Shown here: piece after piece, positions 1,827-63,663 of the stretch | How positions within the stretch are numbered: position 1 is the first letter of the stretch | Layout of the letters: each line of letters starts with the position of its first letter | Assembly (NCBI GenBank): GCA_902779845.1 | Contig: CACZCZ010000007.1 | Coordinates: 20,675 to 84,674 of the forward strand | From: an uncultured Bacteroidales bacterium | GTDB lineage: Bacteria > Bacteroidota > Bacteroidia > Bacteroidales > Bacteroidaceae | Reading direction: 5' to 3' | Length of the DNA: 64,000 bases | Notes under the pieces: generated by a model | Seen by the model: only the letters and a program-made list of their open reading frames with translations | Told to the model about the DNA's origin: nothing | Databases searched by the model: none | Position numbers and translations under genes: made by a program

Positions 1827-4800
1827 TCAAGTGTGAAGCGTCGCAAGCGCCGAGCGGTCACGACTCGGCAATTCAAGCAAGCTTGATTGCTCTCGCTGCT
1901 CCAAAAGTTCAAAGTTCAACTTCTGCCGCAGGAATTGTCCTGTATAGCTTTGTTCGCAGGCGATGATTTGCTCGGGAGTACCAGCACAGACGACATTGCC
2001 GCCCGCAGCACCACCCTCGGGACCGAGGTCGATGATGTAGTCGGCCATCTTGATGACATCCATGTTATGTTCGATGACCACGATGGTGTGGCCACGCTCG
2101 ATAAGCGCATCGAAGGACTGCAGGAGGCGACGGATGTCATGGAAATGAAGACCTGTTGTGGGCTCATCGAAGATGAAGAGTGTCGGTTCCTGCTTTTCCA
2201 TCCCGATGTAGTAAGCCAACTTCACACGCTGGTTCTCACCACCTGAGAGCGTTGAGGAGCTTTGGCCAAGCTTGATGTAACCGAGGCCTACGTCCTGCAG
2301 GGGCTTCAGACGCTTGACAATCTTCTTCTCGCCATGCTCCGCAAAGAACTCCATGGCCTGATTGACGGTCATGTTCAGCACATCGTTGATGTTCTGCTCG
2401 TGGAAACGCACGTCGAGGATGTCGCTCTTGAAGCGCTGTCCATGACAGCTCTCACACTCCAACACCAAGTCAGCCATAAACTGCATCTCGATGGTCACAG
2501 TGCCTTCGCCCTTACACTCCTCACAGCGACCGCCGTCGGTGTTGAACGAGAAATGGCTGGCCGTGAAGCCCATCTGCTTGGCCAAGGGCTGATCGGCGAA
2601 GAGACGACGGATCTCATCGTAGGCCTTCACGTAGATGACGGGATTCGAGCGCGAACTCTTGCCGATGGGGTTCTGATCCACGAACTCCACCGCCTTGATG
2701 GCACGCATATCACCCTCCAGGCCCGTGAACTCACCTGGGCGATCACAAGCCTCATCCAGCCGCCGCTTCATGGCACGGTAGAAGATGTCGCGCACCAGCG
2801 TGCTTTTGCCCGAGCCGCTGACACCCGTCACACATGTCATCACATTCAGCGGGAACTTCACATCAATGCCGCGCAGGTTATTGGCGCGTGCACCCTTGAC
2901 CTCAATATATCTGTTCCATGGGCGGCAGACTCTCCCCACTCCGAGGACCCTCTCCCCTGCCCCTCCCTTGTAGAGAGGGGAGTATATGCCAAGGAGCCAT
3001 TGAAGGGTGTGTGAGCGCTCAACTGTTTCTTGAGGGATTCCTATACTTGATAGGTAATCACTCCCCTCCCTACAAGGGAGGGGCAGGGAGGAGGGGTCTC
3101 CACTCCACACCACTTCTCCTCCTAAGCGTCCGGCCTCCGGACCGATATCGATGATATAGTCGGCTGCACGGATGATGTCTTCGTCATGCTCCACGACAAC
3201 CACTGTGTTGCCGAGATCCACCAGCTGACGCAGCACCTTGATGAGACGTTGTGTGTCGCGGCTATGCAGACCGATGCTGGGTTCGTCCAGGATGTAAAGG
3301 CTACCTACGAGGGAACTGCCCAATGATGTCGCCAGGTTGATGCGCTGGCTCTCACCGCCACTGAGGCTGTTGCTGCGACGCCCCAGCGTCAAGTAGCCAA
3401 GACCTACATCCAAAAGGAACTGCAGGCGGCTTTCAATCTCTGTGAGCAGGCGCTTGGCAACCTCTAAATCGTGGGAGCTCAGCTTTAGCCCCTGTATCCA
3501 TTTCATCAACTCCGTGATCGGCATGTCCACGAGTTCCGTGATGGCCTTGCCTTCCACTTTCACATAGGTGGCTTCCTTGCGCAGACGTGTGCCGTGGCAG
3601 TCCGGACATTCTGTCTTACCCGTATAGCGTGCCAGCATCACACGGTTCTGTATCTTGTAGCGTGCCTCACGCAGGTAGTCAAAGAAGAGGTCGATGCACA
3701 CGTCGCCACGATACCACCGGTCATCGAGCGAGAGTTCCGGATGGCGGCCATGCCACAGGATATTCTTTTCCTCCTGCGACAGCTCGTAATACGGCTTGAA
3801 GATGGGGAAACCGTTGCGTTCAGCATTTCGGATGAACTCCGTCTTCCACTCGCTCAGCTTCTCGCCGCGCCAGCATTGCACACAACCCTCATACACGCTC
3901 TTGCTGCTGTCCGGGATGACCAGGTGCGGGTCTATGCCCTGCACACTGCCCCACCCTTCACAGGTCGGGCAGGCTCCCATGGGTGAGTTGAAGGCAAAAA
4001 GCTGGTCGGAAGGTTCCTCGAACGTCATCCCGTCGGCTTCGAAACGTGTGGAGAATACATGCACGATACCGGCAGGCAGGAACTTCAGCATCATCTCCCC
4101 ATGGCCCTCAAAGAACGCAGTCTCCGTGGAATCGGTAAGACGGGAATAGGGAGACTCTCCCCCCGCCCTCCCTATAAGGGAGGGAGTGGTTTGTATTTGA
4201 GCGGTCGGCGTTTCAGGCACCGATAATCGGTCTATGAGAAGATAGAGAGGATTCTTTGAGAAATTGGAATTATGAGATTCCTTAGAAAGTTCTGCTATAT
4301 AATCCTCAATGCGCCAAATGCCATTGGTATCTGCTCCCTCCCTTATAGGGAGGGCGGGGGGAGAGTCTGTTACCACCCTCGTATATCCCTCCTGCAGATA
4401 TGCCTTCAGCTGGTCTTCGAGCGTGCGGCCCTCCGGCAGGCGGATGGGACACAGGACGAGGAAACGGGTGCCGGGGGAGTATGAGAGTGCCGTCGCTATC
4501 ACGTCCTCCGTGGTGTGCTTCTTCACCTCCTGACCACTGATAGGGCTATAGGTGCGACCGATGCGGGCGTAGAGCAGGCGCAGGTATTCGTAGATCTCGG
4601 TGCTGGTGCCTACGGTGGAGCGCGGGTTGCGCGAGATGACCTTCTGCTCGATGGCGATGGCGGGCGGGATGCCGCTGATGTAGTCGCATTCGGGCTTACT
4701 CATGCGCCCAAGGAACTGACGCGCATAAGCATTCAGGCTCTCCACATAGCGACGCTGACCCTCGGCATAGAGAGTGTCGAAGGCCAACGAGCTCTTTCCC

Positions 4801-4913: not shown

Positions 4914-6090
4914 ACATATTCTCGTAGTACTTCTGGTAGTCACCGCTGGTGACATTGTCCATCCAGGCCTCGTTGTCGAGATACCAGCGGACGGTGCGCT
5001 CGATGCCCTCCTCGAACTGGAGAGAAGGTTCCCAGCCGAGTTCGCGCTGCAGCTTGCGGCTGTCGATGGCATAGCGCAAATCATGACCGGCACGGTCAGT
5101 GACATAGGTGATGAGGTCCATGTCCTCGCCTTCCTTGCGACCGAGCAGGCGATCAACGGTGTTGATGACGACCTTGATGATGTCGATGTTCTTCCACTCG
5201 TTGAAGCCGCCGATGTTGTAGGTCTCGGCTATCTGTCCCTTATGGAAGATGAGATCGATGGCACGGGCGTGGTCCTCAACATAGAGCCAGTCGCGCACAT
5301 TCTCACCCTTACCATAGACGGGCAACGGCTTGCGATGACGGATGTTGTTGATGAACAGCGGTATCAGTTTCTCGGGGAACTGATAGGGGCCGTAGTTGTT
5401 GGAGCAGTTGGTGACGATGGTCGGCAGGCCGTAAGTGTCGTGGAAGGCCCGCACGAAATGGTCGCTCGAAGCCTTGGAAGCGCTGTAGGGGCTGTGGGGC
5501 TGGTACTTCAGGTCCTCGGTGAAGAACTTCTCGCCGTAGGCCGGATGGGCGTCGGCAGAAGCCTTCGTGGTGAAGGGCGCCGGAACGCCTTCGGGATGTG
5601 TCATCTCCAAGGCGCCATACACCTCATCGGTGGAGATATGGTAGAAACGTTTGCCCTCGTACTTCTCAGGCAGCGACTCCCAGTAGAGTTTGGCGGCCTG
5701 CAGCAGGGAGAGGGTGCCCATCACATTAGTCTGTGCGAAGGTGAAGGGGTCCTTGATACTGCGATCCACATGGCTCTCGGCGGCGAGGTGGATGATGCCG
5801 GTGACGTGCTCCTCCTGCATCAGTTTGTAGAAGGCGTCGAAGTCGCAGATGTCCATCTTCACGAACTTATAGTTCGGCTTATACTCGATGTCCTTCAGGT
5901 TGGCGAGGTTGCCGGCGTACGTCAGCTTGTCGAGGTTGATGATACGATACTCAGGGTATTTGTTCACAAAGAGGCGGACGACATGGCTGCCAATGAAGCC
6001 GGCGCCGCCAGTGATAACGATAGAGGGAGACTCTCCCCCCGCCCTCCCTACAAGGGAGGGAGCAGTATGAACTTGAGCAGTAGTATTCAT
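4900..6090 (-). CDS. rfbB: dTDP-glucose 4,6-dehydratase
   Basis: RmlB/RfbB converts dTDP-glucose to dTDP-4-keto-6-deoxyglucose, the second step toward dTDP-rhamnose for surface polysaccharide. Visible features are the Rossmann motif ITGGAGFIG (residues 26-34), the catalytic STDEVYG (T154, D155, E156) and YSASK (Y202, K206). The protein has 396 residues; about 20 N-terminal residues (TAQVHTAPSLVGRAGGES) come from GC-palindrome copy 5, placed between the start codon and the first beta strand SIVITGGAG. The native start appears lost, so translation from ATG 6090 through the repeat is needed. rfbC lies 118 bases upstream in the same direction; uvrA overlaps the 3' end. rfbA and rfbD are not in this window. 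Confidence 0.95.
   Translation of the reverse strand: MNTTAQVHTAPSLVGRAGGESPSIVITGGAGFIGSHVVRLFVNKYPEYRIINLDKLTYAGNLANLKDIEYKPNYKFVKMDICDFDAFYKLMQEEHVTGIIHLAAESHVDRSIKDPFTFAQTNVMGTLSLLQAAKLYWESLPEKYEGKRFYHISTDEVYGALEMTHPEGVPAPFTTKASADAHPAYGEKFFTEDLKYQPHSPYSASKASSDHFVRAFHDTYGLPTIVTNCSNNYGPYQFPEKLIPLFINNIRHRKPLPVYGKGENVRDWLYVEDHARAIDLIFHKGQIAETYNIGGFNEWKNIDIIKVVINTVDRLLGRKEGEDMDLITYVTDRAGHDLRYAIDSRKLQRELGWEPSLQFEEGIERTVRWYLDNEAWMDNVTSGDYQKYYENMYANR
6029..6063 (+). repeat. GC-palindrome element copy 5 (5' end of rfbB, pair with copy 6)
   Basis: GACTCTCCCCCC flank, CCCTCCC-TACA-AGGGAGGGAGC core, inner arm AGTATGAACTTGAGCAGTAG. It encodes residues 5-21 or so of RfbB. Confidence 0.9.
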
Positions 6091-6165
6091 AATCTATTAG
6101 AATTAGTTTATATGATTCTCGTTGTAGCTTATATATTTAGACTATTCTATTCCTGAAAGGTAATC

Positions 6166-6200
6166 ACCCCCTCCCTTATAGGGAGGGCGGGGGGAGAGTC
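6166..6200 (-). repeat. GC-palindrome element copy 6 (rfbC-rfbB intergenic)
   Basis: Inverted partner of copy 5, 102 bases away: CCCTCCC-TTAT-AGGGAGGG core and GGGGGGAGAGTC flank. The inner side carries TTCCTGAAAGGTAATCA. It ends 9 bases downstream of the rfbC stop, so it could also act as an RNA hairpin there. Confidence 0.9.
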
Positions 6201-6208
6201 TGGTGAGT

Positions 6209-7344: not shown

Positions 7345-7417
7345 TGTTTGATAGGGCAATGGGGTTAAGGGTTTAAGGAGTTTAAGATTCAGGATTCAAG
7401 AGTTCAACGATAACGAC

Positions 7418-7453
7418 ATTCGTCATTCATCATTCGTCATTCATCATTCGTCA
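7418..7453. repeat. ATTCGTCATTCATC tandem repeat at the end of the HAD gene
   Basis: Two and a half tandem copies of a 14-base unit CATTCGTCATTCAT. On the minus strand it reads ATGAATGACGA; the HAD protein ends inside it (residues TNDE and stop). The same unit recurs at 11969-12035 and near 61580. Confidence 0.88.
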
Positions 7454-8339
7454 GGATGGAATCGAGGTTGTCGGCGAGTGCCTGCATGGAGGGGAAGAGC
7501 CAGCTGGCGCCCTCGTTGAGCAGGAGCTGGGGGTCAAGCGGTCCGGTGTTGACGGCTATCGTCTTGATGCCCGCAGCCACAGCAGCACGCACGCCCAAGG
7601 GTGCGTTCTCCACGACGAGTGCTTCGTCGGCGGTGATGCCGGCTTTCTGCAGGGCCATGAGATAGGGTTCGGGGTTGGGCTTTCCATAGCGCACATCGTC
7701 GCCCGTCACCATGAGCTCTGGCGTGAATTGCCCCGGGTAGTGCTTCTCAAGCCGCGTGAGCAGCGACTGTTGAGCCGAGCCCGTCACCAGCACGCGCATC
7801 AGTCCTCGCGCGCGTACCTTATTTAATACATCCCCTGCTCCGGGCATCTCAGGAGCCTCGCCACCTCGCTTTGACATGTACTCGTTGAAGACGATGGTCT
7901 TCTTGTGGTACAGCTCGCGTGCCTCTTCCTCTGTGGCATCACGATTCCAGTAGCGGCGCGTGAAGATGCTGATGGTGCCAATGCCGGTGCGCCCTTCATG
8001 CTCAAAGGCATCGGACTCCTTCATCGGCAACCCATAGGCTGTCATCACCTTGGCCCAAGCATAGGCATGGCCCGGCATACTGTCAAACAGTACGCCGTCC
8101 ATGTCAAAGAAAATGGCGCGAACAGGAGACCCACCCCCAGCCCCTCCCGTTAGGGAGGGGAGTGGCTGGCGCGAAGTGTGTTTCTCTATTTTAGAAGTTG
8201 GAGGATTCAATATATAATTCTTTATAGTTTGTACTACATATTCTATCTGATTCCGCACCTCATCATTACTGAAGCGAAGGACGCTGAAGCATAGATCCTG
8301 AAGACGTTGGGGTCGGCCTTCGTCATATTCGATCTGCAC
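7437..8339 (-). CDS. HAD-superfamily phosphatase/phosphomutase, N-terminally fused to a DUF559 remnant
   Basis: From residue 74 on this is a HAD-IA hydrolase of the beta-phosphoglucomutase type: nucleophile loop FFDMDGVLFD (D79, D81), motif II VTGS, motif III GKPNPEPYL and motif IV VVENAPLGVRAA. It probably acts on a small phosphorylated sugar. The native start is absent: no ATG or GTG lies just before RAIFFDMDG, so translation must begin in inserted DNA. From GTG 8339 residues 1-49 (QIEYDEGRPQRL...VLRFSNDEV) match the C-terminal end of DUF559 Vsr-like nucleases. Residues 57-73 come from GC-palindrome copy 7. It lies just downstream of pgi, the usual position of a HAD gene in related genomes. 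Confidence 0.8.
   Translation of the reverse strand: MQIEYDEGRPQRLQDLCFSVLRFSNDEVRNQIEYVVQTIKNYILNPPTSKIEKHTSRQPLPSLTGGAGGGSPVRAIFFDMDGVLFDSMPGHAYAWAKVMTAYGLPMKESDAFEHEGRTGIGTISIFTRRYWNRDATEEEARELYHKKTIVFNEYMSKRGGEAPEMPGAGDVLNKVRARGLMRVLVTGSAQQSLLTRLEKHYPGQFTPELMVTGDDVRYGKPNPEPYLMALQKAGITADEALVVENAPLGVRAAVAAGIKTIAVNTGPLDPQLLLNEGASWLFPSMQALADNLDSILTNDE
8128..8163 (+). repeat. GC-palindrome element copy 7 (inside HAD gene, pair with copy 8)
   Basis: GACCCACCCCCAG flank and CCCTCCC-GTT-AGGGAGGGGAGT core; the inner side carries GCGAAGTGTGTTTC, related to the arm of copies 3, 5 and 13. It is read in the HAD gene as QPLPSLTGGAGGGSP. Confidence 0.88.
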
Positions 8340-8343
8340 CAGC

Positions 8344-8381
8344 CTCCCCCCTCCCTTTACGGGAGGGGTTGGGGGTGGGTC
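8344..8381 (-). repeat. GC-palindrome element copy 8 (between pgi and HAD gene)
   Basis: Inverted partner of copy 7, 180 bases away: CCCTCCC-TTTAC-GGGAGGGG core and GGGGGTGGGTC flank. It starts 5 bases after the pgi stop. The DUF559 fragment lies between copies 7 and 8. Confidence 0.88.
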
Positions 8382-9725: not shown

Positions 9726-11978
9726 TTATTGTTTAAGATATTTATCGTATAGTTCTTGTGCAATCTGTATCTCGTCGCCATCCGGCGCAGCCTTGAAGGT
9801 GTCGTAGGGCAGCGAAGTGCCATTCACAAAAGGCCACTCGTAGTCGGCAAACCACTGCTGCGACGTGCAGCCATTCGCGAAGAAGGCTTTCCAGCGGGGA
9901 TAGTAGTAGGCTGCCAGGAGGCCCTGCCACTCGCGGTTGGCGTAGTCGTGCAGACCGCCGTTCTCGCACTGGGCACGGTCGCCCCAAGTCGTAAGAAGCA
10001 TCCGGGCGTTCTTCTCATAGAGGTCTTTCTCGGCAAGAGAACTGCCGAGCGCACGGGCCGCCTCTGTCCAACGCCCGAGTCGCAACGCGCGGCGTGTGCC
10101 CAGCAACCTATCTTGATCCAGAATGAGTCCAAGGAACTCTTCCATTTTTACCTTTTCATTTTTTATTTTTAATTCATCCAACAGTTCCTTACCGTAGTCG
10201 GCCAGGCACTGACGGGTGATATCGACGAGGTCATAGCGATAGTTGTCGTTGTCCTTCATCGCAGCGCTCACGGACAGCATCTCACGCAGCGCTGTGCGCA
10301 GGTCGGCGAAGTCCCAGTACCACGTGGAGTTCGCCCAACTGCTGACGGTTCCAGGCGTCAGCGACGGACGCATCAGGAATACGCTCTCCGTGGTGCCTTG
10401 CTGGGCGTCGTTAGGACAATTGTATATGCCAGAGGCCAGTCTCTGCCAAACAGAGAGCAAAGTCTTGAAACTTGAATCCTGAAACTTGAAACGACCAAGC
10501 CCATAGCGCATCTTCACATAATCTGCAATCCATGTGGCACGGGTGTAGTCGGTATTGGTCCAAGGCAGCGCGTAGAGCAAGTCATAGAGCATGGCGTTGT
10601 TCTCGATGCCTTCGGGGAGGGCACCAATGCCCACGAGCCGGTTCTCTGCCTTGTTGTTGCGAGCCGCGTAGAAGCAATCGATCAGGCGATCCACACGACC
10701 AAACAGACCTACATTGCCGCCAAAGTTCGACACCTGTCCCCACACCCAGTCATGGGAAGACCCCTCATGGTCGGGGGTGAATCCTGTGTGATGACCGCTG
10801 CACGAGGTGTCAGCGTATTGGTCGCCATGCAAATCAAGGATGATGAGCCTGCCACACGGAACGGTGTGGGTGACAAGGGTCGTGGGGTTCTCCTGCCAGT
10901 GCTGCACCACCCACACGGCCTTCGGGTCGTAAGCCTGCAGGGCCTCCCACATCCCAGCCACCGAGGCCTTAGCATCGGTAGCGCCACGCGGCACACCACC
11001 TTCATGGAAGGGATCTATGGCCCAATGGTGGGGCGTGCAGACATCGCCGTACAGGGCGTTGAAGGCAGCGTAGTACTTCGCCGCGAACTCCTGCAGACGT
11101 TCCGTATTGTTGACGAAGGCGGGACGTGCGAAAGAGCACCAGCTGCCGCTATCTACGATGTCCGAGGGCTGCCATGCTGCCACCTGCGAGGCTTTGGCCT
11201 GCAGCAGGAACTCCTTGGGAATCATCCCGACATAGCCCGGCACCACGGGCGACATCCCGAACTCCGTCATACGACGGAAGATCTGACGTGCCAGCTTACG
11301 CCGCTGCGTGTACCAGCTCTGGGGCTGCGGTCCGCCCCAGGCGGTGAGGTTGTTCATGAAGAACCAGCCGTAGTAGGCGCTGCCCGAGACGAAGGTGTTG
11401 ACGGCCTCGGGCGTATAGCCGTAGCCCTTCTCCAGCACCTCTTTCCACACACACTCCATCCCGGCGACGGCCAACGGCATGTTCACGCCATGCAGCGCCA
11501 TCCAGTCGAGTTCCTGCTGCCAACGTTCCCAGCCCCAGAAGGCCATGGAGTAGCTGTAGGTACAGAAGTTGAGGTAGTAGCGCCAAGGGACACTGGCGGT
11601 GTGGGTCTCTCCGGCACAAGCGGGTAGTGAAGACGGGAGTGTGGCCGTGGGGCTGTTCCATGAGATGTCGATGCCGGCATAGTGCTGCAGGTACCAGTTG
11701 ATGCCGGTGGCAATGGCGATAGGGTCTGAACCGATGACGCGAACCTTGCAACCGTCGCAGGACAGCGTGAACTGTTGTGCCTCGCCGCTTGTGATGCTCC
11801 ATTCAAACTTCTTGGCATCACCGTTGTGGGGCAGAACACGCGAGAGCAGCCCGCCGATGGGGTCGGCAGCTACACAAATGAAAAATGAAAAATGAAAAAT
11901 GAAAAAAAAGAGAGCCCTGCGCCAAGAAAAACCTACTTGACGTAAGAGAAGTTGCTGTTGGTAATCCTTATTCATCAT
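9726..11978 (-). CDS. Alpha-N-acetylglucosaminidase, GH89 (NAGLU-like)
   Basis: GH89 enzymes remove terminal alpha-linked GlcNAc, for example from mucin O-glycans or heparan sulfate. The 750 residues show the family architecture: small N-terminal domain ([12 protein letters not shown]), barrel with [39 protein letters not shown] and IDPFHEGG (probable acid/base Glu), and the C-terminal helical domain. A signal peptide is likely; its hydrophobic core ([14 protein letters not shown]) is encoded by a tandem ATGAAAA repeat. The ATGATGAAT start codons lie in another tandem repeat (11969-12035). Near residue 615 [11 protein letters not shown] again looks repeat-derived. It sits between gpsA and pgi, which are neighbours in many Bacteroidales, suggesting later insertion. 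Confidence 0.92.
11876..11911. repeat. AAATGAAA tandem repeat coding for the GH89 signal-peptide core
   Basis: Four tandem AAATGAAA-type heptamers followed by an A-run. On the minus strand it is read as phenylalanine-rich [10 protein letters not shown] related TTTTCATTTTTTATTTTT stretch occurs inside the same gene near 10155-10172. Confidence 0.85.
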
Positions 11979-12035
11979 TCGTCACTCGTCATTCATCATT
12001 CGTCATTCGTCATTCATCATTCGTCACTCGTCATT
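11969..12035. repeat. ATTCGTCATTCATC tandem repeat between gpsA and the GH89 gene
   Basis: About five units of the ATTC(A/G)TC type fill the space between the gpsA stop and the GH89 gene and contain the GH89 start codons. Same family as 7418-7453. Confidence 0.88.
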
Positions 12036-12037
12036 CT

Positions 12038-13033
12038 CTACCTAAAGCTATCCGTCAGCAGTTTGATTTCCACCATCGGTGCTATGCGCTCATAGAGGAT
12101 GTTATATACCGCATCAAGAATGGGCATATTGACGTGCAGGTGTCGGTTGATCTCCTTCATACACTTGGCACCGAAGTAACCCTCGGCTATCATCTCCATC
12201 TCGATCTGTGCACTCTTCACGCTGTACCCCTGCCCTATCATCTGTCCGAAGACACGGTTGCGCGAGAACTGGCTGTAGCCCGTCACGATGAGGTCACCCA
12301 TGTAGCAGCTCTCAAAGATGCTGCGCTGGATGGGATGCACGGTGGCCAGGAAGCGGTTCATCTCCTGCAGGGCGTTAGACATGAGCACGGCCTGGAAGTT
12401 GTCGCCGTACTTCAAGCCCTTGCAGATACCCGCTGCGATGGCATAGACGTTCTTCAGCACCGAGGCATATTCGATGCCGATGACATCGCGCGAGGTCTTC
12501 GTCTTCACGTAGCTCGATGCCATCATGTCCGCGAAGGCCTGCGCCTTCTCCTCGTTGGAGCACCCCACGGTGAGGTAGGTCAGACGCCCCAGCGCCACCT
12601 CCTCGGCGTGCGAGGGGCCGGCGATGACGGCGAGGTTGTCGTCGGGTACATTATAAACTTGATGAAAGAACTCCGAGACACAGAGGTTCTCGTCGGGCAC
12701 AATACCCTTGATGGCGGTGACGTTGAACTTATCGCGCAGGCGTACCTTCAGTTTCTTCAGATGGCCCTTGAGATAGGGCGAAGGCGTCACCCAGATGAGC
12801 GCATCGGCGTGCTCCACGACCTCGTTGATGTCGCTGGAGAAATGGATACGGCTGACATCGAAGTGTACGCTGGTGAGGTAGGCCGGGTTGTGACTCAGGC
12901 GCATGAAATCATCGATACGGTCCTGACGACGCAAGTACCACCAGATGCTGTCGTTCTTCTCCAGCATCATCTTAGCGATGGCCGTAGCCCACGAGCCGCC
13001 GCCCATGATAGCTATGGTTCCTATGCTGTCCAC
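12038..13033 (-). CDS. gpsA: Glycerol-3-phosphate dehydrogenase [NAD(P)+]
   Basis: GpsA reduces dihydroxyacetone phosphate to sn-glycerol 3-phosphate for phospholipid synthesis. The nucleotide-binding loop [15 protein letters not shown] is at the N-terminus. Further motifs are [32 protein letters not shown], and the catalytic lysine region [20 protein letters not shown]. The protein has 331 residues, normal for the family. The start is GTG 13033 and overlaps the lysS stop by 13 bases, indicating translational coupling. The C-terminus ends just before the tandem repeat at 11969. Confidence 0.95.
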
Positions 13034-19971: not shown

Positions 19972-21825
19972 ATGGAAGAGAAACAGATTATAGCAAATTC
20001 TATAATAGAAGAACCTTCGGTATTTCCGAACGTGCAATACTGGTGGCTAAATAACAGCTCAGAAATATGGGATATAGAAGAATGTGCAATTGGAGACGAA
20101 AAAACGCTTTTATCCGTTAACAAAAAATGGGATGGCAAGAATCTTAACAAGCGCGATATAGATTTTATAAAATGGTTAGATTGCTATCTTGTCAACACAA
20201 AAGACAATCCACGTATCGGGATTCCTATATCGCGCAGAGAAATGGCGACTTCTTTTCTCGACTACTGTGGTATCAAAGTTGACGAAAAGGGATTGAAGAC
20301 GGAGGCTTATCCCCGCTTTAAGGAGCTGTTACCAACGTACATTAAGGGGTCAACCTACGTGATGAATCCTGAGGTTGTGCTTTTATCGAAGAGCGATAAA
20401 GATAACAAGTTCAGACATTGTGCAGCATGGCAATATCCAAATAATCCAGATGGATCTATTCGAACAGACAAGAATGGCAACAGATTCCCCCGCGTACTAA
20501 CACCCAGCCTACGTTGTTATTACTTTTATCGCAAGACTGAAGTTCCTCGTTATTCCTACGACAAGAAACATATTGGCGATAAAGATTATGTGCAACCTGC
20601 GCCTAACAAAGATCCAGAGATTGGATACCCTGGCATTAAAAGTATTACTCCATCAAGTATGACAGCTTCTACAGATGTCCATAAAGGGGACTATGTCCTT
20701 TTATATGAACATGCTACTAAACAAATAACAGGCCTTCTGAAAATTGTAAATGTAAATAGCAATCAGATTACATTACAAATCACGGAAATATATGACGAAC
20801 CGGTATCTGTGGACAATACTGATGGAAACGAATATCTCTCTGAAGATTTAGATAGATTCATACCTTTAGACTATAAGGAATATAAAAACATTAGGAAAGG
20901 AATTGTATTAAAGAATCCGGAGTATGGTAATAGGAAGTATTCTCATGAAGATCTACTAAAAACAGCATTTATTGATAAGTCATTGTTAGATGATATCTAT
21001 CAAACATTGATGGAAAAAAAATGTGTCATTCTACAAGGTGCACCTGGTGTCGGAAAAACTTACCTTGCGAAACGAATTGCATATTCTCGAATGGGATTGA
21101 AAGATGACAGTCGAATAGAGTTCGTGCAATTCCACCCCAATTACACGTACGAGGATTTTGTCATAGGATACAAGCCTAATAATGAGTCTAAACAGAGCGA
21201 AGGGAAGAAAAACGACGGAAGCTTTATTTTAAGAGATGGCGTATTTAAGGCGTTTTGTGAAAATGCGAAAAAGGCTTCTAATTCAAAGAAAGATTATTAC
21301 TTCATTATTGACGAAATCAACAGAGGGAACACAAGCAAGATTTTTGGCGAGGTATTTTCTTTAATAGAAAAAAACTATAGAAACCAACGTATTAAATTAG
21401 CATACTCTCAAAAGTCATTCAGGATTCCCCAGAATGTTTATATCATCGGCTTGATGAATACTGCTGACAGAAGTCTAGCAATGATTGATTTTGCATTACG
21501 TCGTCGCTTCCGATTTATTACTATAAAACCTGCTTTCCAGTCTGACTCCTTTAAGAAATATCAAAAGGAAGTTAACAACAAGACCTTCGATAAAGTTATT
21601 GAGGGTATAGTAGTCCTTAATGAAACTATCAAAAAAGACCAGTCTCTAGGCGAAGGTTTCTGCATCGGACATAGTTATTTTTGTCTTAATCCCAAAGATG
21701 TCAATAAAGGAACATTGTATAGAATCCTAGAGTATGAAATAATTCCCATGCTTCAAGAATATTGGTTTGATAACGAAGGAAAATTCAATGAGGAAGCACG
21801 TAAATTACGAAACACTTTGAAATGA
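19972..21825 (+). CDS. mcrB: McrB-like GTPase with a split EVE/PUA-like reader domain
   Basis: The C-terminal half is the McrB AAA+ GTPase: Walker A GAPGVGKT (356-363), Walker B FIIDEINRGN (D447, E448), the McrB hallmark MNTADRS (495-501) and sensor ALRRRF. The N-terminal 290 residues start with VQYWWLNNSSEIWDI and continue, after about 190 residues, with KGDYVLLYEHATKQITGLLKIV. These are the two halves of an EVE/PUA-like modified-base reader, apparently with an insertion between them. McrBC-type enzymes cut DNA carrying modified bases and are powered by GTP. mcrC follows with a 4-base overlap. The gene is AT-rich like the rest of the island. Confidence 0.85.
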   Translation: MEEKQIIANSIIEEPSVFPNVQYWWLNNSSEIWDIEECAIGDEKTLLSVNKKWDGKNLNKRDIDFIKWLDCYLVNTKDNPRIGIPISRREMATSFLDYCGIKVDEKGLKTEAYPRFKELLPTYIKGSTYVMNPEVVLLSKSDKDNKFRHCAAWQYPNNPDGSIRTDKNGNRFPRVLTPSLRCYYFYRKTEVPRYSYDKKHIGDKDYVQPAPNKDPEIGYPGIKSITPSSMTASTDVHKGDYVLLYEHATKQITGLLKIVNVNSNQITLQITEIYDEPVSVDNTDGNEYLSEDLDRFIPLDYKEYKNIRKGIVLKNPEYGNRKYSHEDLLKTAFIDKSLLDDIYQTLMEKKCVILQGAPGVGKTYLAKRIAYSRMGLKDDSRIEFVQFHPNYTYEDFVIGYKPNNESKQSEGKKNDGSFILRDGVFKAFCENAKKASNSKKDYYFIIDEINRGNTSKIFGEVFSLIEKNYRNQRIKLAYSQKSFRIPQNVYIIGLMNTADRSLAMIDFALRRRFRFITIKPAFQSDSFKKYQKEVNNKTFDKVIEGIVVLNETIKKDQSLGEGFCIGHSYFCLNPKDVNKGTLYRILEYEIIPMLQEYWFDNEGKFNEEARKLRNTLK

Positions 21826-22862
21826 CAAAAGATAAGAACATACTCATTCACAATATTTATTATATGTTGACCTATGCTTTTAGAGATTTTAGGTTCAACA
21901 TAGATGAATATATTGCTGGTGAACATTTTGAAGAGATTCACGATTTGTTCGCCGAGATATTAATTCGTGGAGTTTCTTCTCTTCTCAAACATGGACTATT
22001 CAAAACATACAAGAACTGTGAAGGTGAACTATCTACTATCCGTGGTAAAATATACTTATATAAAACCTATGAGATAGGACGCACTAAACCTTATCAGGCA
22101 TATTGTTCTTATGACGAGCTCTCAGAGAACAATATTTATAATCAAATATTGAAAACAACGCTTCTGCATATATTACAATGTACTAATGTGAGTTCTTTCC
22201 GTAAAGATACCATTAGAAGTATGTTGAGATTTTTTCATGAAATAGATAATATCAATCTTCAAACGATTAGATGGAATATCATTAGCTTTGATAGAAGGAA
22301 TAAGAGCTATCAAATGCTTCTCCTTGTTTGTGAATTCATTCAAAAGAGTTTGTTAATGACAACGGAAAATGGGACATACAAAATGACATCTTTATCCGAC
22401 GATAATATGTGTCTTTTGTTCCAGAGGTTTGTCCTTGCATACTTTCAAAAACATTACCCTAAAACAAATGCTCGCTCCGAACAGATATCATGGAATTTCA
22501 AGAAAAAAGGGGACAATGACAGTATACTACCAATAATGCAGACTGATATCATGCTATCATTAGGTGAACGAACGTTAATTATTGACACGAAATATTATTC
22601 GCATGTTTTACAAACAAATTATAACAAATCAACAATTCATAGTTCACACTTATATCAACTTTACGCATATGTCAATAACTATGATACTGCGCACACAGGT
22701 AATGTAGACGGAATGTTATTATATGCTAAAGTAGAAGAAGATTTTTCACCAGATATTGAAAACGAGTTCTCGGAAGGCAATAAAATATATGTACGCACAC
22801 TTGACTTGTACCAAGACTTTCAAGGAATTTGCGCTCAACTTGAAAAATGTATCGACATATAG
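21822..22862 (+). CDS. mcrC: McrC-like restriction endonuclease subunit
   Basis: The 346-residue protein has the McrC pattern: N-terminal NILIHNIYYMLTYAF, the middle GELSTIRGKI and YDELSENNIYNQILK, and a C-terminal PD-(D/E)xK nuclease with MQTDIML (D242) and LIIDTKYY (D255, K257). It would be the nuclease that McrB delivers to modified DNA. It overlaps mcrB by 4 bases (ATGA), and the two share the low GC content. This is the last gene of the island; downstream 290 bases are AT-rich and gene-free. Confidence 0.85.
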   Translation: MTKDKNILIHNIYYMLTYAFRDFRFNIDEYIAGEHFEEIHDLFAEILIRGVSSLLKHGLFKTYKNCEGELSTIRGKIYLYKTYEIGRTKPYQAYCSYDELSENNIYNQILKTTLLHILQCTNVSSFRKDTIRSMLRFFHEIDNINLQTIRWNIISFDRRNKSYQMLLLVCEFIQKSLLMTTENGTYKMTSLSDDNMCLLFQRFVLAYFQKHYPKTNARSEQISWNFKKKGDNDSILPIMQTDIMLSLGERTLIIDTKYYSHVLQTNYNKSTIHSSHLYQLYAYVNNYDTAHTGNVDGMLLYAKVEEDFSPDIENEFSEGNKIYVRTLDLYQDFQGICAQLEKCIDI

Positions 22863-23149: not shown

Positions 23150-24454
23150 ATGACAGAAGACAAGCGAGAGAGGCTGTGGAGACCGGTGGATCCTACGCGG
23201 CACCATCGTGAAAAGAGATGGGACTACCGGGGGCGTGCCATCTATCACTTCACGCTGCCGGTGGAGGGGCGTTATCCGCTGTTTGGAACACTCGAGGGCG
23301 ATAGTGCTGAAACGGCGGCGGTAAGGCTCAATGCTTACGGGCGGCGGGTGTGTCAGATGCTCAGCGGACTGGCGCAGTTCTACAAGGGGAAAGGCTATGC
23401 GCTGAAAGTGCTGGCGCAGATGGTGATGCCGGACCATGTGCACCTGGTAATCCAGGTGCTGGAACCGCTCCCGCAAAGCATTGGAGCCGTGGTGCGGGGA
23501 TTCAAGAGCGCGTGCACCAAGGTGTACAAGGAGGAGTTCTATGGCAGCGGCGAAAACGCCGCTGAAGTGCACGGGGGAGAAAGGGACGCCGCTGAAGTGC
23601 ACGGGGGAGAAAGGGATGCAGCTGAAGTGCACGGGGGAGATGATGAAGTGCACAGAGGGGAAGAGAGCGGCGCGAGAGGGGATGAGGGCGGCGCGAGAGG
23701 GGATGAGGGCGGCGCGAGAGGGGATGAGGGCGGCGCGAGAGGGGATGAGGGCGGCGCCCCCGTGCATTTTGTCCGCATCTTTGCGGACAGGGGTAGTGTC
23801 TGGCAAAAAGACCCCGCCTACTACCACGAGCGCATCCTTCATGCACCGGGCCAGTTGCGCAGGATGATTGACTATGTGAAGGATAATCCGCGGCGGCTGT
23901 GGCTCAAGACCCACAACCCCGACCTCTTCAAACTGCACCGACGAACGGAGGCTGCCGGCCTGTCGTTCACGTCGATGGGTAATCATTTTCTCCTCAACTG
24001 GCCTGACGGCCAAACGGTGGAGATGTCACGCAGCGCCAACAGCGAACAGATACAAGAGCGCCTGCAAACGGTGCTGGCAGCGGCGCACAACGGAGCGATT
24101 ACCTATACTGCGGCTATCAGCAAAGGCGAGCAACACATTGCTCGTTCTTTACGCCAGCAAGGTTATCCGCTGGTAGTGCTGCTCAATGATGGTTTCCCCA
24201 AGGAAGGGTCACCTCATGAGCGATACTACAAACCTGGGGGTGTCTATTTCGAGGCGTGTTCGAAAGGGCAGTTATTGCTGCTGGAGCCCACCGAAGAGGC
24301 GTTCCTCGATGCTTCTATACAGGAGGCTGTGGAAGCGGCACTGCGCCGTAAAGCTGAAGAACGACATTACAGCTATACGCCCATTCCTGTCACCTCTCAG
24401 CGTTATCGCTTTATGGCGCTCAACGAGATGGCCAGGCGGTTGGCGAATCGATGA
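23150..24454 (+). CDS. REP-associated-type tyrosine transposase (Y1/HUH) with expanded internal repeats
   Basis: The core is a Y1_Tnp (IS200-like, RAYT-type) single-strand transposase: RAIYHFTLPVEGRYPLFG, the HUH motif VMPDHVHLVIQ (H96, H98) and the candidate catalytic tyrosine in MIDYVKDNPRR (Y242). Between them, at residues 138-201, is a low-complexity insert built of AAEVHGGERD repeats and four GARGDEG repeats, encoded by tandem DNA repeats. After residue 260 comes an additional domain (ISKGEQHIARSLRQQGYPLVVLLNDGF...GVYFEACSKGQLLLL) that I have seen as a C-terminal extension of Bacteroidota RAYTs and that recalls a DprA-like Rossmann fold. It is a lone gene next to the defence island. No flanking IS ends are seen; RAYTs typically act on dispersed palindromes. 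Confidence 0.75.
   Translation: MTEDKRERLWRPVDPTRHHREKRWDYRGRAIYHFTLPVEGRYPLFGTLEGDSAETAAVRLNAYGRRVCQMLSGLAQFYKGKGYALKVLAQMVMPDHVHLVIQVLEPLPQSIGAVVRGFKSACTKVYKEEFYGSGENAAEVHGGERDAAEVHGGERDAAEVHGGDDEVHRGEESGARGDEGGARGDEGGARGDEGGARGDEGGAPVHFVRIFADRGSVWQKDPAYYHERILHAPGQLRRMIDYVKDNPRRLWLKTHNPDLFKLHRRTEAAGLSFTSMGNHFLLNWPDGQTVEMSRSANSEQIQERLQTVLAAAHNGAITYTAAISKGEQHIARSLRQQGYPLVVLLNDGFPKEGSPHERYYKPGGVYFEACSKGQLLLLEPTEEAFLDASIQEAVEAALRRKAEERHYSYTPIPVTSQRYRFMALNEMARRLANR
23561..23752. repeat. Two tandem repeat arrays inside the transposase gene
   Basis: A 30-base unit (23561-23590, 23591-23620, partial to 23640) is followed by four 21-base units (23669-23689, 23690-23710, 23711-23731, 23732-23752). 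All units are multiples of three and encode AAEVHGGERD and GARGDEG. The 21-base copies 2-4 are identical, so the array is young or kept uniform. Confidence 0.93.
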
Positions 24455-26216: not shown

Positions 26217-27029
26217 ATGAAAAGTATCTTAGAGGGGCGCGAGGCGCTCAAAAAAGCCGTGGGCGACGTAGCAGAAGTTGCCGGTTACCTATGGCAGAAG
26301 GGTTGGGCCGAGCGCAACGGCGGCAACATCACGGTAAACATCACGGAGCTGGTGGACGATGCCATTCGCGCGCTGCCCGCCATCTCACCCGTCTATCAGA
26401 TCGGCACTACCCTGCCCCATCTGAAGGGCTGCTATTTTTACTGTAAAGGAACACAGATGCGCATGCGCGACTTGGCACGCTGGCCGATGGACAACGGCAG
26501 CATCATCCGCATCCTTGACGGCTGCGCCAGCTATGTCATCATCGCCGACAATCCTGTGAAGCCCACGAGCGAGCTGCCCTCACACCTGGCCGTCCATGAC
26601 TATCTGCTGGCCAAGGGCTCGCCCTACCGCGCCAGCCTCCACACCCACCCCATCGAGCTGGTGGCGCTGACCCACAACAAGACATTCATGGAGAAAGACG
26701 TGGCCACGAAGATGCTGTGGTCGATGATTCCCGAGACGAAGGCGTTCTGTCCGCGCGGACTGGGTATGGTGCCTTACATGCTGCCTTCGAGCGTAGAACT
26801 CGCCGACGCCACCATCAAAGCCATCGATGATGACTACGACGTGGTGATGTGGGAGAAGCATGGGGTGTTCGCCGTCGATACGGACATCATGAGTGCCTTC
26901 GACCAGGTCGATGTGCTCAACAAAGCCGCTCTCATCTACATCGCCGCCAAGAACATGGGCTTCACGCCCGACGGCATGACAGACGCGCAGATGCAGGAGC
27001 TCAGCGATGTCTTCGGACTGCCGAAGTAG
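26217..27029 (+). CDS. rhaD: Rhamnulose-1-phosphate aldolase
   Basis: RhaD cleaves L-rhamnulose 1-phosphate to dihydroxyacetone phosphate and L-lactaldehyde, third step of rhamnose use after RhaA and RhaB. The 270-residue class II aldolase has GWAERNGGNIT at the N-terminus, KGCYFYCKGT, the zinc site HTHPIELVALTH (first two His plus a later one in WEKHGVFAVD) and a Glu in SELPSHLAVH. All fit the family. The gene stands apart from rhaA and rhaB, and its upstream region lacks their operator. Confidence 0.94.
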   Translation: MKSILEGREALKKAVGDVAEVAGYLWQKGWAERNGGNITVNITELVDDAIRALPAISPVYQIGTTLPHLKGCYFYCKGTQMRMRDLARWPMDNGSIIRILDGCASYVIIADNPVKPTSELPSHLAVHDYLLAKGSPYRASLHTHPIELVALTHNKTFMEKDVATKMLWSMIPETKAFCPRGLGMVPYMLPSSVELADATIKAIDDDYDVVMWEKHGVFAVDTDIMSAFDQVDVLNKAALIYIAAKNMGFTPDGMTDAQMQELSDVFGLPK

Positions 27030-27066
27030 GACTCTCCCCCGACCCCTCCCTAAACAGGGAGGGGCG
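27030..27066 (+). repeat. GC-palindrome element copy 9 (between convergent rhaD and ATPase genes)
   Basis: GACTCTCCCCCG flank and CCCTCCC-TAAAC-AGGGAGGGG core. It begins on the base after the rhaD stop and ends 3 bases before the stop of the leftward ATPase gene, filling the whole space. It is unpaired. As RNA it would form a hairpin in both directions. Confidence 0.9.
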
Positions 27067-27069
27067 TAT

Positions 27070-43821: not shown

Positions 43822-44448
43822 ATGATGAACAAGCAATTCAATACCATCACCTCCACCTGTATCCCCATCGCCATCGACAACTGCAACACGGATCTCATCA
43901 TCCCTGCCCGCTATCTGGCCAGCACCACACGCGACCCCAAGTTCTTCGGCGATGCATTCATGCACGACTTGCGCTACGATGCCAGCGGCAACGCGGTTCA
44001 TGATTTCGTCATGAATAAGAAAGAATTCTGCGAAGCTCCCCATGAGGGCGTTCACGAGATCATTGTGGCAGGCAAGAACTGGGGCAGCGGTTCCTCGCGC
44101 GAACACGCCGCTTGGGCCATCGCCGGCTACGGTGTGCGCGTGGTCATCAGCAGCAGTTTTGCTGATATCCACCGCAATAACCTGCTGAACTGCTTCGTGC
44201 TGCCCGTCATCGTCAGCCCCGCCTTCCAGCAGGAACTCTTCGACAGCATCGCTGCCGATCCGCAGACGCAGGTGTGCGTAGATCTGCCCGCACAGACCGT
44301 CACGAACCTCGCCACCGGCCACTCCGAACACTTCGACATCAACGGCTACAAGAAGTACTGTCTGATGAACGGCTTGGATGATATTGATTTCTTACTAAAG
44401 AACGTGGGAACCCTCCCCCCTGCCCCTCCCTTGTATGGAGGGGAGTAG
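43822..44448 (+). CDS. leuD: 3-isopropylmalate dehydratase small subunit, with a repeat-derived tail
   Basis: LeuD supplies the swivelling substrate-binding domain. About 208 residues from ATG 43822 (an ATG one codon later is equally possible). Motifs: NCNTDLIIPARYL, KNWGSGSSREHAAWAI, and ADIHRNNLLNCFVLPV. The final residues GTLPPAPPLYGGE are encoded by GC-palindrome copy 10, so the protein has a tail not found in the family. It partners with leuC, directly upstream, and is followed by the second synthase gene. Confidence 0.94.
   Translation: MMNKQFNTITSTCIPIAIDNCNTDLIIPARYLASTTRDPKFFGDAFMHDLRYDASGNAVHDFVMNKKEFCEAPHEGVHEIIVAGKNWGSGSSREHAAWAIAGYGVRVVISSSFADIHRNNLLNCFVLPVIVSPAFQQELFDSIAADPQTQVCVDLPAQTVTNLATGHSEHFDINGYKKYCLMNGLDDIDFLLKNVGTLPPAPPLYGGE
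44408..44446 (+). repeat. GC-palindrome element copy 10 (3' end of leuD, pair with copy 11)
   Basis: GAACCCTCCCCCCTG flank and CCCTCCC-TTGTAT-GGAGGGGAGT core. It supplies the leuD C-terminus and stop (TAG 44446-44448). The inner side carries GTCACCTGTCAAGAATAG, the reverse complement of the arm at copies 2 and 6. Confidence 0.86.
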
Positions 44449-44470
44449 TCACCTGTCAAGAATAGCTTAT

Positions 44471-46153
44471 ATGAACGATAGCAAACAGTCAACACATTTC
44501 ACGCCCTCCATAGGCAAGGCGGGGGGAGCGTCTATCGAAATCATGGACACGACCCTGCGGGATGGTGAGCAGACCAGCGGCGTGAGCTTTATGCCACATG
44601 AGAAACTGCTGATATGCAAGGCGCTGCTGGAAGAGCTGCACGTGGATCGTGTGGAGGTGGCCTCAGCGCGCGTCAGCGATGGCGAGCTGGAGGCCGTGCA
44701 GCGCATCACACGCTGGGCCGGCAGCAAGGGTCTGCTGGACCGCGTAGAAGTCCTCGGCTTCGTCGATAACGGCAAGAGTCTCGACTGGATCGAGCGTGCC
44801 GGTGCCCGCACCATCAACCTCCTCTGCAAAGGCTCCCGCCGCCACTGCGAAGGACAACTCGGAAAGACGCTCGAAGAGCACGCCGCCGACATCCGTCGTA
44901 ATGTGGAGATGGCAGCCCAGCGCGGCATCGCCGTGAACCTGTATCTGGAAGATTGGAGCGGGGGGATGAAGACTCTCCCCCATACCCCTCCCTATCAAGG
45001 AGGGGAGTATATACCTTCTGAGACAGAGAACAATTATGTTTTCCAACTCTTAGATTCCATCAAAGATCTCATTACTCAAACACATACTACTCCCTCCCTA
45101 CAAGGGAGGGCGGGGGGGGGGGCCGCGGTCTCCAGAATCATGCTGCCGGACACCCTCGGCATCCTGAACCCGTTGGAGACGTTGGAGTACATGAAGCAGA
45201 TGGTGGCGCGCTACCCTGGCGTACACTTCGATTTCCACGCTCACAACGACTACGACCTGGCCGTGAGCAACACCCTCGCAGCCGTCCTCGGAGGGGCTCA
45301 GGGACTGCACACCACCATCAACGGATTGGGTGAACGGGCAGGCAACGCACCGCTTGCCAGCGTGCAGGCCATCTTAAAGGATCACTTCAACGCAAATACA
45401 AATATCAATGAGAATCAGCTCTATAAGATAGCACACCTTATAGAGAGTTACAGCGGTATTGCCATTCCACCCAACAAACCCATCACGGGTTCAGCAGTCT
45501 TCACACAGGTGGCCGGTGTCCACGCCGACGGCGACAACAAACAAGGCCTCTACCAAAACGCGCTGAAGCCAGAGCGCTTCGGCCGACGTCGCGAATACGC
45601 CCTCGGCAAAGCCAGCGGCAAGGCCAACATCCGCATGAATTTGGAGGAGCTGGGACTGGACCTCAGCGACGAAGACATGAAGAAAGTCACCGACCGCATC
45701 ATTGAGCTGGGTGACAAGAAGGAACACGTGACACAGGAAGACCTCCCCTTCATCATCCGCGATGTGCTGAAGCATAGCGAGGAGGAAGAGCGTGTGCGTC
45801 TGCTCTCCTACATGGTCTCCACGGCCTACGGTCTGCGACCGATGGCACAGGTACGACTACAAATTGAAGACCAGATCTACGAGGAGAGCGCACAGGGCGA
45901 CGGTCAGTACGACGCCTTCGTGCGCGCCGTGCGCCACATCTACCGCGACCGCCTCAACCGCCATTTCCCCTGGCTCTCCAACTATGCAGTAACCATCCCG
46001 CCAGGAGGCCGCACTGACGCACTCGTGCAGACTACCATTGAATGGGTATTCGAGGAGAAGACCTACCGCACTCACGCACTCGATGCTGACCAGACGGAGG
46101 CCGCCATCAAAGCCACCATCAAGCTCCTCAACATCATCGAGCCACTTTATTAG
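44471..46153 (+). CDS. cimA: Second LeuA-type synthase (citramalate/2-isopropylmalate synthase-like) with repeat inserts
   Basis: HMGL-like synthase: [51 protein letters not shown] (HxH metal site), GERAGNAPLASV, VAGVHADGDNKQG, and a C-terminal LeuA regulatory domain (RVRLLSYMVSTAYGLRP...HALDADQTEAAIKATIK). 560 residues from ATG 44471. It belongs to the group that Bacteroidales carry next to leuCD and that may make citramalate for isoleucine; the substrate is not certain. Three GC-palindrome copies are translated: FTPSIGKAGGAS (N-terminus), TLPHTPPYQGGEY and TTPSLQGRAGGG, the last two flanking a native helix NNYVFQLLDSIKDLI. An 11-G run (45112-45122) lies inside the gene. leuB is not present downstream. 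Confidence 0.85.
   Translation: MNDSKQSTHFTPSIGKAGGASIEIMDTTLRDGEQTSGVSFMPHEKLLICKALLEELHVDRVEVASARVSDGELEAVQRITRWAGSKGLLDRVEVLGFVDNGKSLDWIERAGARTINLLCKGSRRHCEGQLGKTLEEHAADIRRNVEMAAQRGIAVNLYLEDWSGGMKTLPHTPPYQGGEYIPSETENNYVFQLLDSIKDLITQTHTTPSLQGRAGGGAAVSRIMLPDTLGILNPLETLEYMKQMVARYPGVHFDFHAHNDYDLAVSNTLAAVLGGAQGLHTTINGLGERAGNAPLASVQAILKDHFNANTNINENQLYKIAHLIESYSGIAIPPNKPITGSAVFTQVAGVHADGDNKQGLYQNALKPERFGRRREYALGKASGKANIRMNLEELGLDLSDEDMKKVTDRIIELGDKKEHVTQEDLPFIIRDVLKHSEEEERVRLLSYMVSTAYGLRPMAQVRLQIEDQIYEESAQGDGQYDAFVRAVRHIYRDRLNRHFPWLSNYAVTIPPGGRTDALVQTTIEWVFEEKTYRTHALDADQTEAAIKATIKLLNIIEPLY
44501..44532 (-). repeat. GC-palindrome element copy 11 (5' end of cimA), degenerate
   Basis: CGCCCTCCATAGGCAAGGCG core with GGGGGGAGCGTC flank. 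Inverted relative to copy 10, 54 bases away. It is read in frame as TPSIGKAGGAS. Confidence 0.7.
44971..45008 (+). repeat. GC-palindrome element copy 12 (inside cimA, pair with copy 13)
   Basis: GACTCTCCCCCAT flank and CCCTCCC-TATCA-AGGAGGGGAGT core. Read as TLPHTPPYQGGE. Confidence 0.88.
45089..45130 (-). repeat. GC-palindrome element copy 13 (inside cimA)
   Basis: ACTCCCTCCC-TACA-AGGGAGGGC core; the outer flank has become an 11-G run followed by CCGCGGTC instead of GGGGGGAGAGTC. The inner arm TACTCAAACACATACT matches copies 3 and 5. Inverted relative to copy 12, 80 bases away. Confidence 0.85.
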
Positions 46154-60562: not shown

Positions 60563-60569
60563 TGTTGTA

Positions 60570-61500: not shown

Positions 61501-61537
61501 GGACAGAATCTACAGGCGAAAGGTCAAAAAACATAGC
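61501..61537 (+). promoter_or_regulatory. Putative rhamnose-regulator operator of rhaB (two direct half-sites)
   Basis: GGACAGAAT (from 61501) and GGTCAAAAAACATAGC (61522-61537), 21 bp apart. The second is identical over 16 bases to the rhaA copy, and the half-site spacing and the 37-bp distance to the -7 box are identical. Confidence 0.78.
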
Positions 61538-61558
61538 TCACGTCACACGTAACGACCT

Positions 61559-61566
61559 TATCTTTG
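61559..61566 (+). promoter_or_regulatory. rhaB promoter -7 box
   Basis: TATCTTTG, 50 bases before the rhaB ATG. The leader contains an ATTCGTCACTC-type short repeat (about 61580-61612). Confidence 0.75.
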
Positions 61567-61616
61567 CACTGATAATACATCATTCGTCACTCCTTAACTT
61601 TTCACTCTTCACTCCT

Positions 61617-63053: not shown

Positions 63054-63663
63054 TCATAACTCCAAAGAAGCCACGCCCACCCTCACCGGGAGGGCGGAGG
63101 GAGAGTCTTCCATGGACTGGAAGACCCTGAAGAGCGAATACATCTTCAAACGCCCTTGGCTCACCGCCCGCCGCGACACATGCCAACTGCCTGACGGCCG
63201 CATCAACGATGAATACTATGTACTGGAATATCCCACATGGGTGCATGTTGTCGCCGTAACCAAAGATGGTGAGATGGTAATCATTCGACAATACCGCCAC
63301 GGCCTTGGCCGCACATGCTTCGAGATTGTGGCAGGCTGTGTCGAAGAAGGCGAAGACCCCTTGGAGGCAGCAAAGCGCGAACTCCTGGAAGAAACCGGCT
63401 ACTCCGGTGGCGAATGGCATGAGGCAATGCAGTTTTCCTGCAACGCCAGTACCATGAACAACATCACCCACAGCTACGTAGCCGTAGGTGTTGAGAAGAC
63501 TGCCGACCAGCACTTGGATGCAACAGAGGACATTGAGATCCATGCCTTCTCACTGGAGAAGGTAAAGGAGATGCTCCTTAACGGCGAATTCATGCAAGCC
63601 TCCATGCTTGCCGCACTCTACAAATTTTTCTCCTTTCAATCATATACGTCCTCGAGTTCCTGA
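63046..63663 (+). CDS. Nudix hydrolase (ADP-ribose pyrophosphatase-like)
   Basis: The Nudix box GCVEEGEDPLEAAKRELLEE followed by TGY is complete, with upstream VVAVTKDGEMVIIRQYRHG and downstream MNNITHSYVAVGVEK. This is the ADP-ribose/sugar-nucleotide group. The frame starts at ATG 63046, inside the end of rhaB; residues 9-21 (ATPTLTGRAEGES) come from GC-palindrome copy 14. The alternative start ATG 63112 (MDWKTLKSEYIFKRPW) is where family similarity begins. Either may be used; the upstream one couples translation to rhaB. Confidence 0.88.
   Translation: MNSHNSKEATPTLTGRAEGESSMDWKTLKSEYIFKRPWLTARRDTCQLPDGRINDEYYVLEYPTWVHVVAVTKDGEMVIIRQYRHGLGRTCFEIVAGCVEEGEDPLEAAKRELLEETGYSGGEWHEAMQFSCNASTMNNITHSYVAVGVEKTADQHLDATEDIEIHAFSLEKVKEMLLNGEFMQASMLAALYKFFSFQSYTSSSS
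63075..63107 (-). repeat. GC-palindrome element copy 14 (5' end of nudix gene)
   Basis: CGCCCACCCTCACCGGGAGG core and GCGGAGGGAGAGTC flank. Unpaired. Read as TPTLTGRAEGES. Confidence 0.83.

Follow-up and report, generated by a model that had tools for sequence, protein, structure and literature searches.

Palindromic repeats of a Bacteroidales genome as probable ends of a mobile element around a DUF559 nuclease gene

The GC-rich palindromes dispersed in this uncultured Bacteroidales genome are probably the two ends of a mobile element that surrounds a DUF559 nuclease gene and settles mostly between the genes of operons, a reading to which we give a probability of about 0.78. In the source genome (G000; 2.92 Mb in 47 contigs) the element would be about 490–530 bp long and would consist of an upstream end (B), the DUF559 nuclease gene, a short leader with an ATG, and a downstream end (A). 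It would settle where a stop codon is followed by the start of another gene in the same direction, and it would supply or enclose a start codon that often overlaps the end of the nuclease gene. From this start codon, translation of the next gene would run through the A end and add an N-terminal extension, and the operon would stay readable. Most copies are short, MITE-like inverted pairs without the nuclease gene, and the element has apparently also left in-frame remnants inside ordinary proteins.

The window, that is the whole stretch of DNA that was analysed, is 64 kb of contig C7. A covariance model of the ends, run unfiltered, marked 14 ends in it, 13 of them at E ≤ 2.7e-7 (the model was built from 13 window copies and hence is not independent of them) and one at 6.8e-4 (44490–44532). 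The exact arm pair CCCTCCCT..AGGGAGGG occurred seven times in the window and not once in 100 dinucleotide shuffles, and a pattern allowing three mismatches had 74 matches genome-wide versus none for the reversed control pattern. These searches bear out the 14 copies reported in a first-pass annotation. Its count of eleven translated copies was also correct, since reading frames cover 11 of the 14 ends wholly or in part (uvrA has four, cimA three, and rfbB, a HAD gene, leuD, and a nudix gene have one each). In the whole of G000, the covariance model search found at least 150 ends, and this is a lower bound because scoring covered 150 of the 1250 first-look candidates.

The 14 window ends formed six inverted pairs and two singles, and in every one of the six pairs the GACTCTCCCC flank pointed outward. 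Genome-wide, 44 neighbours lay less than 400 bp apart, and they were ordered '+-' in 41 cases, '++' in three, and '-+' or '--' in none. In the clear cases (some ends could not be typed), the inner flank of the B end was AGTRATTACC / AGTRATTACCTTTCAAG and that of the A end was AGTGGTTTGTATTTGAGC. Pair order and inner-flank types rule out one palindrome inserted in two orientations. The two peptide types, which had been taken for one element read in both orientations, are instead two distinct ends: DSPPALPIREG-type peptides are B ends and TTPSLIGRAGGES-type peptides are A ends. The conserved inner arms noted beyond the palindrome do exist, but they are really the inner flanks of these two ends. 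The first-pass annotation had also regarded the palindrome itself as a small mobile element inside proteins. It is dispersed, lineage-specific, and tolerated in frame as proposed, but it is only one end of a pair, and such pairs are found around DUF559 nuclease genes; most of the 42 pairs of G000 (29) were at the junction of two genes, not within a protein. Twelve of the others were inside one gene, and one had no gene call. Genes around the pairs and the nuclease loci were called with a simple codon-score caller.

Ends within a pair were more alike than ends across pairs (42 pairs, 0 of 10,000 permutations), indicating a shared subfamily, and the loops were identical in 13 of 31 pairs versus 3.3 expected. 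Averaged over the 42 pairs, the GC content was 0.37 in the interior and 0.58 outside; for the in-gene pairs alone, it was 0.49 versus 0.58. Pairs without a nuclease gene were short (107–271 bp). Five compact in-gene pairs of 114–147 bp (C17:4423, C20:54581, C20:115971, C27:30590, and C13:21381) look like a separate miniature form. By eye, four of these five carry an internal GCGGAYGCCYGCTCA-like motif, and the pairs at C20:115971 and C27:30590 are antisense to the gene call; no uniform sense orientation of in-gene pairs is claimed.

A genome search found four DUF559 (PF04480) genes in G000, one of which is a remnant. All four were enclosed by an inverted palindrome pair, one pair being of a variant palindrome type. 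The remnant lies in the window, where the C-terminal part of a DUF559 nuclease gene is at 8217–8339 (−) within the pair 8128/8381. Its A-side end (8128–8173, +) is at the start of the HAD gene and its B-side end (8338–8381, −) is 5 bp past the pgi stop codon, both found by the covariance model, and the remnant is now read as part of the N-terminal extension of the HAD gene. For relatives of the nuclease, the two 400-bp flanks were compared for their best inverted repeat, which was scored against control flanks. The sample was the best 80 of at least 512 confirmed DUF559 loci, and 79 of them were testable (L106 was dropped, its 3′ flank being 49 bp). The nearest nuclease relatives among the loci listed were from Prevotellaceae/Bacteroidaceae MAGs, mostly of ruminant gut; one DUF559 protein (L146) is from an isolate, Xylanibacter brevis ATCC 19188. 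The median score was 63 in the 79 relatives and 20 in the controls; 72 of the 79 nuclease loci scored at least 40, versus 3 of 203 controls, and the remaining seven scored 30–39. In a 60-genome panel, 29 DUF559 loci were looked at and four were dropped for short contigs. Seventeen of the 25 scored loci reached 35 and eight were below it, while none of 50 controls was above 31; the sequence types of the flanks varied by lineage. At one locus (L119, flanks of 3001–3363) both arms, about 130 nt each, contain the same long insertion, suggesting arm-to-arm copying.

Nuclease and palindromes are inherited jointly across sites. Over the 79 loci, nuclease protein similarity correlated with palindrome similarity (r = 0.52, 0 of 2000 permutations), and after exclusion of the 97 of 3081 pairs that share a host junction (33 junction groups) the correlation was r = 0.50 (0 of 2000 permutations). 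In 71 of the 79 cases, the most similar nuclease from a different junction had a palindrome more similar than average. Paralogues within a genome had different palindromes (scores 15–24; 12 comparisons in 8 genomes), and for those paralogues the closest nuclease in another genome usually, though not always, had the better palindrome match (15–42). Co-variation across different junctions and the differing palindromes of paralogues argue for nuclease and palindromes travelling as one moving unit, not as independent repeats around a passenger. Part of the co-variation could come from descent of whole loci, though it persists across different junctions. Alternatively, the palindromes might be REP-like and move singly by another enzyme, and DUF559 might be a homing-type passenger that enters palindrome-bracketed places. 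We regard this as unlikely, since nuclease and palindrome types co-vary across different junctions, 72 of 79 nuclease loci are clearly flanked, and other families and phyla have lineage-specific flanks; some of the observations on UvrA, CimA, and palindrome-rich genomes given below do fit it.

The position of the proposed nuclease-bearing element is also regular. In 78 of the 79 nuclease loci (the exception is L129), both neighbours were co-directional with the nuclease; the background in the window was 37 of 47 neighbours. The upstream stop was at most 5 bp from the outer edge of B in 46 of 78 nuclease loci, and in 68 of 78 the first ATG of the next gene was between the nuclease end and A, with the frame open through A. 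An ATG at the nuclease stop (at most 15 nt before the stop) was present in 53 of 77 loci, versus 6 of 21 window genes for which a slightly wider interval was used. The 29 junction pairs of G000 were all between co-directional genes. Their upstream stop fell between 10 bp outside and 3 bp inside the outer edge in 18 cases, the upstream frame read into the first end in eight, and the stop was farther away in three; in 26 of the 29, the downstream frame started inside and read through the second end. Two such junctions of the window, with ends located by the covariance model, are rfbC–rfbB, where the B end (6155–6200, −) is 8 bp past the rfbC stop codon and its partner A end (6029–6081, +; MNTTAQVHTAPSLVGRAGGES) is just past the rfbB start codon, and leuD–cimA. 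At the latter, the B end (44411–44456, +) is read as a C-terminal extension of leuD and a weak A end (23.3 bits; 44490–44532, −; THFTPSIGKAGGAS), which is also seen in the CimA alignment, as an N-terminal extension of cimA. The same model found the two single ends. One (27030–27077, +) directly follows the stop of the gene at 26217–27029 and sits in a convergent junction, unlike the co-directional rule, and no partner was found for it. The other is an A-like end (63062–63107, −; EATPTLTGRAEGES) that forms an N-terminal extension of the nudix gene, with nothing nearby as a partner beyond a 5.9-bit match at 62620. In G000 the leuA–leuC junction is empty, its stop and ATG being 5 bp apart; seven other genomes have it filled. 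This comparison of one empty with seven filled junctions, from different species, gave no clear target duplication, and the start-codon region was replaced or enclosed.

The in-frame inserts were examined in alignments, with the ends again placed by the covariance model. For UvrA, the G000 protein was compared with 29 orthologues in an alignment. Its inserts, at site 1 (A end 4153–4205, +, TAQIQTTPSLIGRAGGES, also assigned by its inner flank; B end 4322–4367, −, DSPPALPIREGADT) and at site 2 (A-side end 2948–2993, +, YSPLYKGGAGERV; partner B end 3050–3095, −, PSSLPLPCREGSDYL), sit in variable loops. They are shared or decayed at the same places in a few relatives of the same genus: G019 has A at site 1 without a visible B, and G015 has both ends at site 2. 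The inserts were absent from both other-genus orthologues aligned (G038 and G057). It had been argued beforehand that finding these peptides at identical sites in distant genera would mean ancestral protein sequence; UvrA of these other genera, two only, is without the inserts. The GC3 of uvrA site 1 was 0.35 in G000 and 0.30 in G019 versus 0.71 elsewhere in those genes, with low values also in some insert-free orthologues (0.44 in G017 and 0.48 in G027). For CimA, a motif filter left 15 of 30 loci usable, and G000 was aligned with the 14 others. Within cimA there is a B end at 44973–45018 (+; TLPHTPPYQGGEYIPSETE) and an A end at 45078–45123 (−; TQTHTTPSLQGRAGGGA). The A end is common to G018 and G000, and a clear B was present only in G000 among the usable sequences, the cimA gene of G018 having A without a visible B. 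CimA of G010 has longer sequence at both insert places, and these stretches may be decayed ends.

All three in-gene pairs examined (two in uvrA and one in cimA) bracket native protein. Therefore, a single insertion of B-x-A is ruled out for these pairs, and so is the possibility that the interior of every pair is element DNA. Native protein between the ends is the sole feature that a model of one moving unit leaves unexplained, and it fits palindromes that move singly, as does an A end without B in G019 and G018. Stepwise insertion of A and then B, hinted at by G018 and G019, is countered by the common subfamily of paired ends, although the two ends of the cimA pair differ in subfamily. Our guess for the uvrA and cimA pairs is that a short stretch may have been nicked once on each strand, with each nick priming the copy of one end. 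The inserts also bear on a further explanation, in which the palindromes are immobile RNA hairpins selected as terminators, translational couplers, or mRNA-stability elements. The junction position, the co-direction, and the strong hairpins would fit such a regulatory role, but in-frame inserts in conserved proteins that are missing from most aligned orthologues, joint inheritance with the nuclease across different junctions, and a window in which 5S rRNA is the only Rfam family at gathering score make it improbable; a regulatory effect is possible as a by-product of the element. The 5S rRNA gene is at the right edge of the window (63906–64000).

Among 37 genomes of the genus, 26 had palindromes and 22 had DUF559. 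DUF559 was found in 20 of the 26 genomes with palindromes versus 2 of the 11 without (Fisher p = 0.002, rho 0.54, both uncorrected for relatedness and incompleteness). The other six of the 26, including G018 with 99 palindromes and G026 with 27, had no DUF559 match, though these MAGs are 77–80% complete; such palindrome-rich genomes again fit palindromes moved by another enzyme. Of 24 other genera, nine had DUF559 but only one had palindrome matches, which were weak, and this fits lineage-specific palindromes. For other phyla (Cyanobacteria, Deinococcota, and Pseudomonadota), 18 loci on plasmids or chromids were taken from 30 of 54 records, and the flanks scored at least 35 in 11 of the 18 versus 1 of 108 controls. 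These loci are not all independent: one Sphingomonas strain contributes three of them, one Synechocystis strain two, and the hpa clusters of Deinococcus another three. Two Synechocystis loci were below 35, and palindromes were present in them by eye. The flank test gave no convincing inverted pair in Azospirillum brasilense, Sinorhizobium K101, Methylobacterium, Photobacterium, or Shinella. The Sphingomonas copies separate sufB from sufC or one transhydrogenase subunit gene from another. The loci of three Deinococcus plasmids (relative to the hpa genes) and of one Sphingobium are antisense, and thus co-direction is not universal. The flanks in S. meliloti are 114 nt and may be linked to the rhizobial RIME repeats.

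Several known systems resemble parts of this arrangement. According to PMC3733652, REPtrons (REP + RAYT) also have GC-rich, high-copy palindromes, inverted pairs, a flanked enzyme gene, and some copies in genes, and CGTC repeats are reported there to lack a transposase partner. The palindrome-plus-enzyme logic is shared with REPtrons, but the enzyme and the operon-junction design differ: DUF559 is a nuclease of the PD-(D/E)XK type, whereas REPtrons have an HUH tyrosine transposase, and the present element contains or provides the start codon used by the following gene. No GTAG/CGTC tetranucleotide was seen by eye at the outer ends of 84 ends, most of which had GACTC or GACCC, and no Y1/HUH tyrosine transposase gene flanked by palindromes was found in G000. 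REPs moved by the RAYT-like tyrosine transposase gene of the window (23150–24454), which matches Pfam Y1_Tnp and weakly NCBIfam REP_Tyr_transpos, were considered first, as REPs form inverted pairs too, but this is very improbable because the gene reaches 33.6 bits where the NCBIfam cut-off is 80, is the sole Y1_Tnp match in G000, and is unflanked by palindromes, the nearest being about 2.6 kb off. The middle of this gene contains repeat arrays with units of 21 and 30 bp, which are in frame and seem to be expanding within the protein. Arrays of CATTCGT/CATTCAT-type units occur near gene ends in at least two places of the window (7414–7467 and 11952–12040), and two adjoining genes at 19972–22862 resemble what we take to be an McrB-type GTPase and McrC restriction pair.

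The analogy to Rickettsia palindromic elements, drawn in the first-pass annotation, holds for the outcome, with the two set side by side by description. In PMC3733652, those elements are palindromic repeats in frame in protein genes, and the palindromes here are in frame in uvrA and cimA and missing from most aligned orthologues. It does not hold for the arrangement, since the repeats here come as the two ends of a pair, are also found on either side of a nuclease gene, and are mostly at gene junctions. As with bacterial MITEs, the short (107–271 bp) nuclease-free pairs are non-coding copies that share their terminal inverted repeats with a coding, putatively autonomous nuclease element; the parent differs in not being a known transposase element.

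The DUF559 proteins match PF04480, and the nuclease profile matched PDB 3hrl (5.4e-22) and 3r3p (1.8e-5), the latter titled in Foldseek as the catalytic domain of homing endonuclease I-Bth0305I. With an AlphaFold2 model of the nuclease (pLDDT 88, 21 sequences), these two were the only Foldseek matches at E ≤ 0.001, I-Bth0305I at 2.1e-4. The matches relate the nuclease, in sequence and predicted fold, to this EDxHD/Vsr-like homing endonuclease, and homology to the EDxHD catalytic domain is found in the DUF559 proteins. A residue pair, E68/D70 in L038 numbering, is invariant. The Caulobacter DUF559 protein VsrA has been studied as a Vsr-like nuclease (PMC12907096), and a DUF559 gene is placed within the EDxHD family (PMC9403480). 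The present genes differ from EDxHD homing genes in having palindromic ends and many sites, with at least 150 ends in G000. In the loci read (by reading, not by a model search), no intron or intein hosting the nuclease was seen. The same host junctions recur in several genomes, possibly by shared descent.

We infer that movement is driven by the DUF559 nuclease. As a PD-(D/E)XK / EDxHD-type endonuclease, it may nick or cut the hairpin ends, the target, or both, which would lead to copying of the unit, and host polymerase and repair would do the rest of the copying. The loci compared gave no defined target duplication, and the element was not seen to move. The literature covered, which included few subscription-journal papers and bioRxiv preprints, contained no account of a DUF559 gene with palindromic repeats on both sides.

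There is perhaps an even chance that these elements represent a widespread unrecognised class in several phyla, which would move by a single Vsr/EDxHD-type nuclease without a transposase, integrase, or reverse transcriptase, enter operons from stop to start, and re-supply the start codon. Its ends would also be placed around host DNA and add peptides to native proteins on both sides, and several orphan GC-rich palindromic families would be its remnants. On the preferred reading, DUF559, a family on which the literature covered has little, is given a definite function at the heart of a probable mobile element, and a class of palindromic repeats is tied to an enzyme other than a transposase. Housekeeping proteins such as UvrA, CimA, RfbB, and LeuC would have a route by which to acquire peptide extensions and internal inserts, and the mover of transposase-less palindromic repeats becomes a testable question.
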